This document shows, one piece after another, positions 3,304 through 6,961 of a stretch of DNA of 37,465 bases. The notes beneath the pieces were generated by a model. It made no database searches. It worked only from the letters and a program-made list of their open reading frames with translations, and had not been told where the DNA came from. Each line of letters opens with the position of its first letter. Within the stretch, counting starts at the first letter, position 1. Location: assembly GCA_945833805.1 (NCBI GenBank), contig CAMAGG010000004.1, forward strand, positions 1 to 37,465, written 5' to 3'. The DNA is from an uncultured Clostridia bacterium (GTDB lineage Bacteria > Bacillota > Clostridia > Oscillospirales > Ruminococcaceae). A program made the position numbers and the translations under genes.

Positions 3304-3492
3304 TTAGCCTCCTGCTGCTTTTTTCAAAATTTCCTTAAAGCTTTCCATCTCTCCGCGGTTTTTCTCACTGTATTCCCGGCTTACAATCCCGTGCTCCTCG
3401 ATAATTTGGGCTTGCTCACAGCAAATGTCAAGAAGCCGTTTTGCAATACCTGTAAGGCTATCAAGTGTTTCAATTAAGTCCGATATAATCAC
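3304..3492 (-). CDS. 62-aa helical protein translationally coupled to the DGR reverse transcriptase (unknown function)
   Basis: Track ORF 3304-3576 overlaps the RT; a GTG start at 3492-3490 overlaps the RT stop as GTGA (3489-3492), preceded by AAAGAG. Product (M)IISDLIETLDSLTGIAKRLLDICCEQAQIIEEHGIVSREYSEKNRGEMESFKEILKKAAGG. Confidence 0.6.
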   Translation of the reverse strand: MIISDLIETLDSLTGIAKRLLDICCEQAQIIEEHGIVSREYSEKNRGEMESFKEILKKAAGG

Positions 3493-4604
3493 CCCATTTC
3501 TCTTTTCATAGCCCTTAGTTTCATATACATATCCCACGTCAAGCCGTTGTTTCTTTGCCATGATCTGACAATACATTTCAGTTTACGCATTACGCGATCA
3601 CCTTTGTATAACCGCATATAAATATTATGGTTGTTGCAATGGGACAGCAGCCCTGCCCGCGAGATCACGCTTGCAGCCATACTCACAGGAACACGACTTC
3701 CCTTTTTCACCTTTTTACGGTACCGCCCTAAAGCTCTTTTAATACGCAGAAGTGTGTGCTTTCGTATCAGTGTATACCCTCTGCCGTATCTGTAGCCCAC
3801 AGCGTCCGGCATTCTCTTTGACGTGGGAAATATCTGATAGTCGCCCTTGAGCTTTAATCCGTGTTCGTTCAGCCAGCTTTCTATAAGCTTCCTGAGCTTC
3901 CTGAGATTACGCTTGTTAGCCCCTAATATAGTCAGGTTGTCCATATATCTTACATAGTGCTTACAGTATCCGCTGTTACGGATAAGCCTGTCTAATGGCT
4001 GCAAAACTGTATTTGCGAACCATTGTGAAGTGTACGCCCCTATCATGATACCATCTTTGACAATGCGCCATACAAGGTCAAGCGTTCTGTAGTCTTTAAT
4101 AAGGTGCTTCATACGCTCCATGACCACTTCCGGCTTCAGGCTGTCGTAAAAGTGATATATATCGCCGCAAAGTTCATATTTCGTTCCTTTTATATCACTG
4201 CTCATCCAGCCCTGTATAGCCTTTCGTGCTTTGTCCGTACCTCTGTCCCTGATACTTCCGCAGCAGTAAAAATCCATTCCGCGCATCATAACAGACTGCA
4301 GCACCTGTATAAGCGCATGATGTATATACTGGTCGGGGTACTGTATAGGCTCACTGATTGTCCTGTATTTCTGCGCACTCGCGTCCCACCTGACTGTCAC
4401 GCGGGGCTTTTTAGGCACAAATCCGTTAACTATAATTTTCCTGAGCTCTCTTACACGCTCGGCTTTAGTTTCCTCAACCCACGCAGTACAGCGGTTGGGG
4501 CGGTGATTTCCGTGCCAATGGTGGTTTTTGTTGACTTCATAGATTGCTGTTTCCAGATTTTTATCTGAAATAATAATATTAAATAGATTTCCTGTACGTT
4601 TGAT
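3489..4604 (-). CDS. DGR-type reverse transcriptase
   Basis: RT palm motifs: YELCGDIYHFYDSL, IGAYTSQWFANTVLQPLDR (DGR-type xGxxxSQ box), YVRYMDNLTILG. Start set at ATC 4604, 8 nt after AAAGGAGG, giving KRTGNLF... typical of DGR RT N-termini; the track ORF extends to ATG 4736. Confidence 0.9.
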   Translation of the reverse strand: MKRTGNLFNIIISDKNLETAIYEVNKNHHWHGNHRPNRCTAWVEETKAERVRELRKIIVNGFVPKKPRVTVRWDASAQKYRTISEPIQYPDQYIHHALIQVLQSVMMRGMDFYCCGSIRDRGTDKARKAIQGWMSSDIKGTKYELCGDIYHFYDSLKPEVVMERMKHLIKDYRTLDLVWRIVKDGIMIGAYTSQWFANTVLQPLDRLIRNSGYCKHYVRYMDNLTILGANKRNLRKLRKLIESWLNEHGLKLKGDYQIFPTSKRMPDAVGYRYGRGYTLIRKHTLLRIKRALGRYRKKVKKGSRVPVSMAASVISRAGLLSHCNNHNIYMRLYKGDRVMRKLKCIVRSWQRNNGLTWDMYMKLRAMKREMG

Positions 4605-4762
4605 GGGAATTTCCTCCTTTTGACAATACGGGCTTTCCAGCGTTTCATAAAAGAAATGTACTGACCCGCTCCCTTGCTGTCTATCTTCGCCGAGGGGCGC
4701 GCGATCACCTGTGCCGTGGCGCAGATTATGCACCATGAGGATATTGTTGACAAAACATTAAA

Positions 4763-4905
4763 GGATGCGACAACCGATGTTGCTGTTGGAGTTGGAAGTG
4801 CTGTTGTAGTTGACGTAGAACAAGCCGTGATTGAGGTTCTGGCTATAGTTACCGCCCACATACAAACACGGGTTGGACGCGTTGAAGTTCCAGTTATCGC
4901 AGGAA
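4763..4905 (-). repeat. DGR template repeat (TR)
   Basis: 143 bp aligns without gaps to 5023-5165; all mismatches are at TR adenines on the minus strand; next to the RT. Confidence 0.95.
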
Positions 4906-4975
4906 CGAAGAACAGAAAACATCGGAAATGCACAGATGACCCCGTTTAATTCGTAATTATGAATTAAAATATACC

Positions 4976-4999
4976 GTGAGGGGGAGATGTCCCCCTCAC
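4976..4999. repeat. DGR-associated hairpin/cruciform downstream of VR
   Basis: GTGAGGGGGA-GATG-TCCCCCTCAC: perfect 10-bp stem, 4-nt loop, 23 nt past the VR 3' end. Confidence 0.85.
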
Positions 5000-5008
5000 A
5001 CTCCCCCT

Positions 5009-6961
5009 TTAAGGGAGTTCCTGGAGGCGACAACCGATGTTGCCGTTGGAGTAGGAAGTGCTGTTGTAGTAGACGAAGAACAAGCCGCGATAGAGGTTCT
5101 GGCTATAGTAACCGCCCACATACAAACACGGGTCGGACGCGCTGAAGTACCAGTTATCGCAGGAATAAGTTGAGCTACTTCCGTTTGCTGCAGTTGGTAT
5201 AAACAACGGAAATATTCCGCTGGTATTCCTTACGCTGAATGCGGATGGATAACCGCTTGACGGTGTACCTATGCTTACTCCGTTTGAGCTGTCGCTGTAA
5301 TTGTTAGGATTGTTTATAATATTAAGACCATTACTGTTGTAATAACAGCCGTCGCACCAGTCGTAGACGTTATCCCACAATCCCTCAATATAACGGTATT
5401 GTGTACCAAGTCCGTATGTAGTGCGCGAGCTTTGTGTTGTGCCTGTATGATAGGGCATACTGTCAGTATATCCCATAGACTGAGTACCGCTGTTATTTCC
5501 GCATCCATAGCCTATCTTGCTTTGAGAATCCCAGTTAGCAAACTCAACGATATATAACAGCCATATAGTAAAACGCATAGCAAAGTCTGACTGCCATATA
5601 TTCAAGCCAAGATTGTGTATAGACGAACGTGCAGAGGAACGTGTTATGCTGACTTTTGGAGTTTGTCCTGATACGCTTTTATAGGCGCTTGAACCACAGT
5701 GATAGCGTCCGATGTATACAACATCGCGCTCACCTTTTCCGTCACCTCTGTCCATATGAGCCGGAGAAACACTGAATCCCTCAGTTTCGCCGTCAGCTAT
5801 CTGTATCTTCATTCCAGAGCCGCTTTGTGTTATCTTATACCAGAACTTTGGTATAGATACCATTGTGCCGCCTGTACGTTCGCTTGTCTGCATATCAGAC
5901 CATGGGTAACAATTATCAAACGGAGAACCATAATTGCTTGCACCCGATACATAGGGAACCGGATCAGAAAATCCTGATGAATCATCTGTTCTTGCCCACG
6001 ACGTTGAGCTTGCACCGTCCCACGAAGCACCGTATATTGATTTTGTAAGTTTAACATAATACCAACCGCCTATTATGTCGCAAAGTACGGTTTTGGTGGT
6101 TGTGACTCCGGAATATGTGACAGATACTGTCCATTCCCCGAGGGTAGGAACATGGACGTCAATAACTCCATCACTCCCAGGAGTTGCGGTTATTGTTTTT
6201 GAACCTGATTTTAAAGTAACCGCAGTATCAGGATAACTTGTAATTGTTATTTTCGGGAAACATAGGTTTTTAAGGTTTTCAACATCATCCGAATTTCCCG
6301 TAACCATAAGCACCCCATCTTTCATTTCAAGCCCCTTACCCACCTTTACGACCCCCGCCTTTTCCTCAGTCGCAGGAGTGGAGATAGTGTCAAGCGTCGA
6401 CTTATCGGCGGCTGTAAACCCACTGTTAAGCGCTGCAAGCTGACCTTCCGTAAGCGGCTTGTCGTTTACAACGTACTGAAGCGCCCATTGCCCTGTGGTT
6501 TCCCCGTCGTTTACCGTGTAAACGTACCTGCAGGCGGCGTTATCGTGGGTTTCATCGGCGAGTACAAGTGCGTAATCGTTTTTTGTGGGCACTCTCGTCT
6601 TCCCTGCGTAGTAGTAAGCAGACGCCCCCGACAGCGCCGCGAAGGTGGGGAAGGGATTTCCGTTTACATCGTATGTAATGTAATAGGCGGAAACTGAATT
6701 TATAGCGTCGTTTACATATTCTGTGCTTGCTTTTTCCCCGTCAAGAGCTTCAATTCTCCTCTGCGCCTCTGCAACGCCTTCATGGGCTTCAGCAATGCCC
6801 TGCTCCATGTGATTAAAACGTTCAGCCGAAAGAGGAGAACCCTTCTGCAATACTTCTCCGGCAGGGGTCAGGGTTTTTGTACCATCGGGATTTTCCGCCA
6901 CGGAATATGTATTTGGTCTGCTTGTAACATGGTCTTTCCATTCTGATTTAGTGTATGCCAT
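5009..6961 (-). CDS. DGR target protein: tail-fibre/receptor-binding-like protein with C-terminal C-type-lectin-like (FGE/DUF1566-like) variable domain
   Basis: 650 aa; N-terminal tail-fibre-like region (SAERFNHMEQGIAEAHEGVAEAQRRIEALDGEKAST); C-terminal domain FWYKI...GLWDNVYDWCDG...CDNWYFSASDPCLYVGGYYSQNLYRGLFFVYYNSTSYSNGNIGCRL; VR lies at the C-terminus. Confidence 0.9.
   Translation of the reverse strand: MAYTKSEWKDHVTSRPNTYSVAENPDGTKTLTPAGEVLQKGSPLSAERFNHMEQGIAEAHEGVAEAQRRIEALDGEKASTEYVNDAINSVSAYYITYDVNGNPFPTFAALSGASAYYYAGKTRVPTKNDYALVLADETHDNAACRYVYTVNDGETTGQWALQYVVNDKPLTEGQLAALNSGFTAADKSTLDTISTPATEEKAGVVKVGKGLEMKDGVLMVTGNSDDVENLKNLCFPKITITSYPDTAVTLKSGSKTITATPGSDGVIDVHVPTLGEWTVSVTYSGVTTTKTVLCDIIGGWYYVKLTKSIYGASWDGASSTSWARTDDSSGFSDPVPYVSGASNYGSPFDNCYPWSDMQTSERTGGTMVSIPKFWYKITQSGSGMKIQIADGETEGFSVSPAHMDRGDGKGERDVVYIGRYHCGSSAYKSVSGQTPKVSITRSSARSSIHNLGLNIWQSDFAMRFTIWLLYIVEFANWDSQSKIGYGCGNNSGTQSMGYTDSMPYHTGTTQSSRTTYGLGTQYRYIEGLWDNVYDWCDGCYYNSNGLNIINNPNNYSDSSNGVSIGTPSSGYPSAFSVRNTSGIFPLFIPTAANGSSSTYSCDNWYFSASDPCLYVGGYYSQNLYRGLFFVYYNSTSYSNGNIGCRLQELP
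5023..5165 (-). repeat. DGR variable repeat (VR) at the 3' end of the tail-fibre gene
   Basis: Same 143 bp as TR with 11 substitutions, all A to T/G/C in the coding sense. Confidence 0.95.

Follow-up and report, generated by a model that had tools for sequence, protein, structure and literature searches.

Whether a diversity-generating retroelement (DGR) whose reverse transcriptase (RT) departs from the usual catalytic box still works, and whether the departure alters the mutations that it makes, are the questions raised by a locus in an uncultured Clostridia bacterium (Ruminococcaceae; GenBank assembly GCA_945833805.1). The window, that is, the whole stretch of DNA analyzed here, comprises positions 1 to 37,465 (37,465 nucleotides) of contig CAMAGG010000004.1. 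A cassette on its minus strand is best explained, with high confidence, as a complete DGR in a contractile-tailed prophage, and the element is apparently working, judging from its sequence. What is new here is the catalytic box of the RT, in which the second aspartate of YxDD is replaced by asparagine, and the mutation spectrum found in the lineage that carries it; the layout is ordinary for its relatives. The parts of the element are as follows.

5009–6961, minus strand: DGR target gene, encoding a 650-amino-acid tail protein (PHROG 5302 "tail protein", residues 337–650, E = 1.7e-38)
5009–6064, minus strand: C-terminal variable domain of the target, with a predicted C-type-lectin (CLec)/formylglycine-generating enzyme (FGE)-like fold (AlphaFold2 pLDDT 88, and Foldseek)
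5023–5165, minus strand: variable repeat (VR) at the 3' end of the target gene, residues ~600–646 of the target
5000–5018, minus strand: hairpin 1, 4 nt past the VR and spanning the target stop codon, ACTCCCTT AAA GGGGGAGT
4976–4999, minus strand: hairpin 2, with a GC-rich 10-bp stem and the sense-strand loop CATC
4763–4905, minus strand: template repeat (TR); all VR mismatches lie at TR adenines
4614–4699, minus strand: RT-18 RNA (Rfam RF03021), proposed DGR spacer/priming RNA (66.3 bits against a gathering threshold of 41.3)
3489–4604, minus strand: DGR RT of 371 amino acids, with the probable start codon ATC at 4604 (PHROG 1423, tree, and fold)
4023–4028, minus strand: Ser193-Gln194 of the DGR SQ motif (IGAYTSQ), which fits (I/V/L)GxxxSQ
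3936–3941, minus strand: Asp222-Asn223 of the YMDN catalytic box, which reads YxDD in other DGR RTs

The identification as a DGR is based on the RT phylogeny, the RT fold, the adenine-restricted mismatches between TR and VR, and a target domain that matches a DGR variable protein. The TR and VR form a 143-nt direct repeat pair with 92% identity, and 11 of the 11 mismatches are located at TR adenines (37 adenines in 143 nt; six A>T, four A>G, and one A>C), an outcome expected from random placement with P ~1e-7. The TR adenines fall 18, 19, and 0 times on the three codon positions of the target frame, and no stop codon can be reached by any substitution of an adenine, in keeping with how a DGR template should be built; approximately 10^22 protein variants are reachable from it. 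No further VR or TR copy was found in the assembly, so second targets elsewhere in the genome were rejected. At another locus, L009 (G083), an additional partial A-biased repeat lies between VR and TR (1045–1103) and may be the degraded remnant of a second VR or TR.

The RT sequence matched PHROG 1423, and its best sequence match in the PDB was 8ub7, the RT of the BPP-1 DGR in its active state, which was also the closest structure by fold to the AlphaFold2 model (pLDDT 89; TM 0.78/0.88; E = 7.7e-19), with group II and retron RTs ranking behind it. In a maximum-likelihood tree that took in nine group II RTs and no retron RTs, the RT fell among the DGR RTs, as the initial annotation of this locus had implied, within a YMDN clade of 18 rows (support 100), and the DGR RTs were split from the nine group II RTs with support 100. 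Its scores were far below the NCBIfam cut-offs for group II intron and retron RTs, no intron or retron RNA was detected, and the assembly contained no second RT above the Pfam RVT_1 cut-off. The same annotation had described a single minus-strand cassette in the order target, VR, hairpin, TR, and RT, with a VR–TR distance of 117 bp and an SQ box of the DGR type; the coordinates of all parts bear out the order, the distance is exact (4906–5022), and the SQ box is present (IGAYTSQWFAN). Its span of 3304–6961 was too long at one end, because 3304–3576 is a neighboring gene not conserved with the element, which extends over ~3489–6961.

The catalytic box distinguishes this RT from most of its kind. 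Both aspartates of YxDD were 100% conserved in 155 DGR RTs (PMC3521204), an observation rather than a definition, whereas the RT of the window and its entire clade carry asparagine at the second position. The asparagine was shared by 87 clade members, comprising 19 RTs of a first set and 68 of 68 further RTs from a new scan (63 YMDN, 3 YVDN, and 2 YLDN); some of these 68 were on re-fetched or near-identical contigs, and one of the scan patterns demanded RYMDN, so that recovery leans toward it, whereas the other did not. The genome match outside the clade in the new scan had YMDD. A single YMDN clade was not rejected (approximately unbiased test, p = 0.174), and YxDN arose once or twice. L056, an RT outside the main clade, has YMDN where its sister has YMDD and may represent a second origin of the box and the spectrum. 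YMDN together with reverse transcriptase was not mentioned in the literature searched.

Other members of the clade are the human fecal gut phage MT838586 and the IMG/VR contigs L004–L006, L033–L045, and L142–L209, whose RTs are 46–67% identical to that of the window, with YxDN in all RTs whose sequence covers the motif, RT-18 and a compact VR–TR–RT layout where scanned, and a homologous target C-terminus in close members. They differ in the target N-termini and in the genes after the RT, indicating that the cassette resides in different phages, and most of their RTs start with GTG, TTG, or ATG. The last ~340 residues of the target in the window are 60–76% identical to the targets of related DGRs, but the N-terminus is not conserved, so the traveling unit consists of the C-terminal domain, VR, TR, RNA, and RT; the same unit has been described for a Vibrio/Bordetella case (PMC3521204).

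In this lineage, A>C changes are nearly absent from the VRs. C was already known as the rarest substitution overall, with ratios that vary among VRs (PMC3521204), and what is new is a near absence tied to one lineage. In the first set, A>C accounted for 4/195 changes in 15 YMDN loci, 11 of which had none, compared with 144/607 in the YxDD loci, where 3/50 loci had none. The pattern was replicated in 44 further YxDN loci that had not been used to notice it (21/574, 3.7%), after duplicates of known TRs were set aside, and the sole new YMDD locus showed 4/15; pooled, the counts were 25/769 in YxDN and 148/622 in YxDD loci. We compared sequence contexts because the RT of BPP-1 (bRT) inserts G opposite A mainly if C follows (PMC12875486). 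A>C was depleted in the AC context (8/376 in YxDN vs. 40/169 in YxDD) as well as in the AA context (13/342 vs. 56/281), and at both codon positions. As a control for amino-acid choice, the two routes to serine from AAY codons, AGY and TCY, were used at 116:2 in YxDN and 53:25 in YxDD (P = 1e-9; this and the other spectrum P values treat the loci as independent, which they are not, since the contrast represents one or two origins). The context and serine comparisons together mean that the lack of C is not explained by context or amino-acid choice alone. DNA context was rejected as the cause because the depletion persists within the AC context, and RNA class was rejected because A>C made up 60/240 changes in YxDD DGRs that carry RT-18. 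Separately, an A before T was seldom changed in YxDN templates (12%, vs. 55% in YxDD templates).

An A>C change in the VR corresponds to G opposite A in the complementary DNA (cDNA), so the RT of this lineage would have lost the G-opposite-A error. With less certainty, the asparagine-bearing active site would place C or A, almost never G, opposite a template adenine, and the VRs would thus gain G and T but hardly any C. From one or two origins, we hypothesize that the asparagine causes the spectrum. More broadly, we tentatively propose, as a plausible reading that stops short of probable, that an Asp-to-Asn change in YxDD created a lineage of Avd-less, RT-18-bearing phage DGRs that mutate adenines without inserting G opposite them.

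The lack of A>C could instead stem from selection on the target protein, or from host repair of A:G mispairs, rather than from the RT active site, an explanation that we consider possible but rather doubtful. It would suit a clade with one common target domain family, a correlation with asparagine that comprises one or two origins, and the two YxDD loci in which A>C is missing as well. It accords poorly with the TCY route to serine, taken in 2/118 cases in YxDN and 25/78 in YxDD, and with a depletion that extends to both codon positions and to both the AA and AC contexts. Furthermore, L056, although outside the main clade, shows 0/11 A>C, compared with 2/11 in its YMDD sister L048. Host repair may nonetheless play a part.

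The compact layout and the lack of a recognizable Avd between VR and TR had been singled out in the initial annotation as worth describing; both features are real, but neither is novel. The VR–TR gaps in the RT-18 group are mostly about 80–300 bp, too short for avd. A search with the bAvd family PF22296 came up empty in the assembly and in LBR48, FP_Epona, vir215, and a hankyphage-like record, and it also gave no match in 17 RT-18-group viral records of up to 152 kb; the same model finds the Avd of BPP-1, used as a control, and an Avd directly upstream of the RT in 3/3 RT-14 DGR genomes tested. A compact layout without Avd is thus nothing unusual in the RT-18 group, and the element is not one of the BPP-1-type, Avd-dependent DGRs, bAvd being absent from the assembly; from the sequences, we infer that it acts independently of Avd. 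An Avd hidden in the window was rejected: with PF05635, the sole match lay within the tape-measure gene and scored below the cut-off, and PF22296 matched nothing in the assembly. Faecalibacterium phage FP_Epona and Lactobacillus phage LBR48 are likewise Avd-less by the bAvd search and carry the RT beside tail and lysis genes; LBR48 also has RT-18. They differ in retaining both aspartates (YMDD in FP_Epona and NIDD in LBR48), and FP_Epona has RT-4 RNA in place of RT-18.

The RT-18 RNA is located between the TR and the RT, and its 3' end contains the RT Shine–Dalgarno sequence AAGGAG. It occupied this position in 35/35 relatives in which the TR was found. When the Rfam structure was applied to 38 RT-18 sequences, 88% of cells were paired, compared with 31–44% when the structure was slid, and 145 two-sided changes were counted, with at least one such change in 18/20 pairs. 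BPP-1 carries the Phage_DGR RNA (RF03022) between TR and brt, the hankyphage-like phage and FP_Epona have RT-3 and RT-4, respectively, directly upstream of the RT, and the same place is taken by RT-14 in a group of DGRs whose genomes belong to the same phylum. The spacer between TR and brt in BPP-1 folds, recruits bRT–Avd, and supplies an internal adenine from which cDNA is primed (PMC12875486). Since RT-18 sits where this spacer RNA sits, it is, by analogy, most likely the DGR spacer RNA of the Avd-less phage group, and it would act in the same way, in RT recruitment and cDNA priming, without a recognizable Avd. This link may already have been proposed in the paper defining the RT-n families; the RT-n accessions and names were not mentioned in the literature searched, which did not cover that paper. 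RT-4, RT-3, and RT-14 also lie directly upstream of the DGR RTs in L013, L014, L115, L117–L121, L130, L131, and L133, and after the TR where a TR was found; RT-14 was accompanied by bAvd in the three genomes tested, whereas RT-3 and RT-4 were not. Nine group II RT loci contained group II intron RNAs and no RT-n RNA.

That RT-18 is merely a conserved leader controlling RT translation, and not a priming RNA, would agree with the inclusion of AAGGAG in its 3' end, which abuts the RT start, but seems unlikely, given that RT-18 always lies downstream of the TR, occupies the place of the BPP-1 spacer, which recruits bRT–Avd and primes cDNA (PMC12875486), and is replaced by other RT-n RNAs at the same place in other DGR groups.

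The reading frame of the RT stays open upstream as far as an ATG at 4736, but the start indicated by homologs is at 4604; the codon at this conserved position (4602–4604, minus strand) is ATC, which follows AAGGAG and 9 nt. RTs of the clade start with GTG, TTG, CTG (as in L035), or ATG, weak starts being common, with GTG and TTG prevailing. It is very improbable that the ATC start, together with a box departing from the YxDD that is 100% conserved in 155 DGR RTs (PMC3521204), marks a degenerate DGR with a crippled RT and old VR/TR differences, given that the asparagine is invariant over the 19 + 68 clade RTs from many contigs and hence not decay, the RT and target frames are open, 97–98% of the mismatches in the lineage lie at TR adenines, and weak starts (GTG, TTG, and CTG) also occur in other clade members.

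Several points weigh against the explanation as a complete DGR and the further proposals that go with it. YxDN arose once or twice, so the evolutionary contrasts behind the link between asparagine and spectrum number only one or two, and two related YxDD DGRs, L054 and L061, show 0/24 A>C, which would reflect a cause other than asparagine, or chance. The VR retains the effects of selection, but amino-acid selection by itself fits poorly with the serine control. Because the Avd in the hankyphage paper is inferred from size and charge only (PMC6199706), an accessory protein unrelated to bAvd may be present. Expression could be weak with an ATC start, and the case rests on the sequence of a single genome. 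Finally, the hairpin loops, AAA and CATC, differ from the 4-nt GRNA loop that is the consensus of phage DGR hairpins (PMC3240598), a usual rather than a defining feature. In position and stem length, the hairpins after the VR fit the rule for BPP-1 (stem of 7–10 bp, 4–34 bp from the VR; PMC3240598); both are GC-rich, and the tandem pair was found again in most clade members folded.

Under the proposed mechanism, a single transcript would carry the TR and the RT-18 RNA, the RT would copy the TR and misincorporate opposite adenines, and the cDNA would replace the VR, helped by the hairpins, altering up to ~20 codons at the tip of the tail protein. The element resembles the BPP-1 DGR (mtd/avd/TR/brt) in its minus-strand order of target, VR, hairpin, TR, RNA, and RT next to the lysis genes, in the adenine-restricted pattern of mutagenesis, in the RT fold, and in the structured RNA between TR and RT. 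In contrast to BPP-1, it has no bAvd in its assembly, YMDN instead of YMDD, RT-18 (84 positions) instead of Phage_DGR (127), few A>C changes in its lineage, and a second hairpin, and the two RTs are ~25% identical.

The target, called tail-fiber-like in the initial annotation, matches PHROG 5302 and has the VR at the 3' end of its gene. The protein is predicted to end in a CLec-like variable domain, the model of which best matched in the PDB the Thermus aquaticus variable protein TaqVP (5vf4, E = 6e-10) and the Treponema denticola variable protein 1, TvpA (2y3c, E = 1e-3), both of them variable proteins of DGRs, followed by formylglycine-generating enzymes. The predicted CLec/FGE-like fold is shared with TaqVP and TvpA, whereas their identity to the target is 10–14%, and they are cellular proteins, not phage tail proteins.

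The contig encodes an integrase, tail sheath, baseplate J, Mu gp48-like protein, tape measure, endolysin, portal, terminase, and head proteins, indicating a temperate, contractile-tailed phage; such a tail had been anticipated in the initial annotation. The DGR has baseplate genes on one side and lysis genes on the other, an arrangement shared with BPP-1 and FP_Epona. A search among phages recovered no close relative, and neither phages nor viral contigs searched with an A-masked TR pattern yielded near copies in which VR polymorphism could be read. The contig has no terminal repeat, so a complete circle was ruled out. A 90-amino-acid open reading frame (3304–3576) overlaps the 3' end of the RT; it was rejected as an accessory protein, having no family match and not being common to the downstream genes of the relatives. 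By analogy with BPP-1, the element would diversify host range.

Among known systems for the programmed hypervariation of phage proteins, DGRs are the principal one, and there is no settled account of why their RTs make errors at adenine. A ready comparison is provided by a natural lineage that differs in both box and spectrum, so that the YMDN lineage makes the link between active site and mutation spectrum testable. The tie to DGRs of RT-18, and by position also of RT-3, RT-4, and RT-14, hints at a function for RNA families with uninformative Rfam names and offers an RNA-based route to finding DGRs, and a DGR without a recognizable Avd is a smaller candidate for reconstitution. If the proposal is true, the second catalytic aspartate would help to determine which mutations a diversity-generating RT makes.

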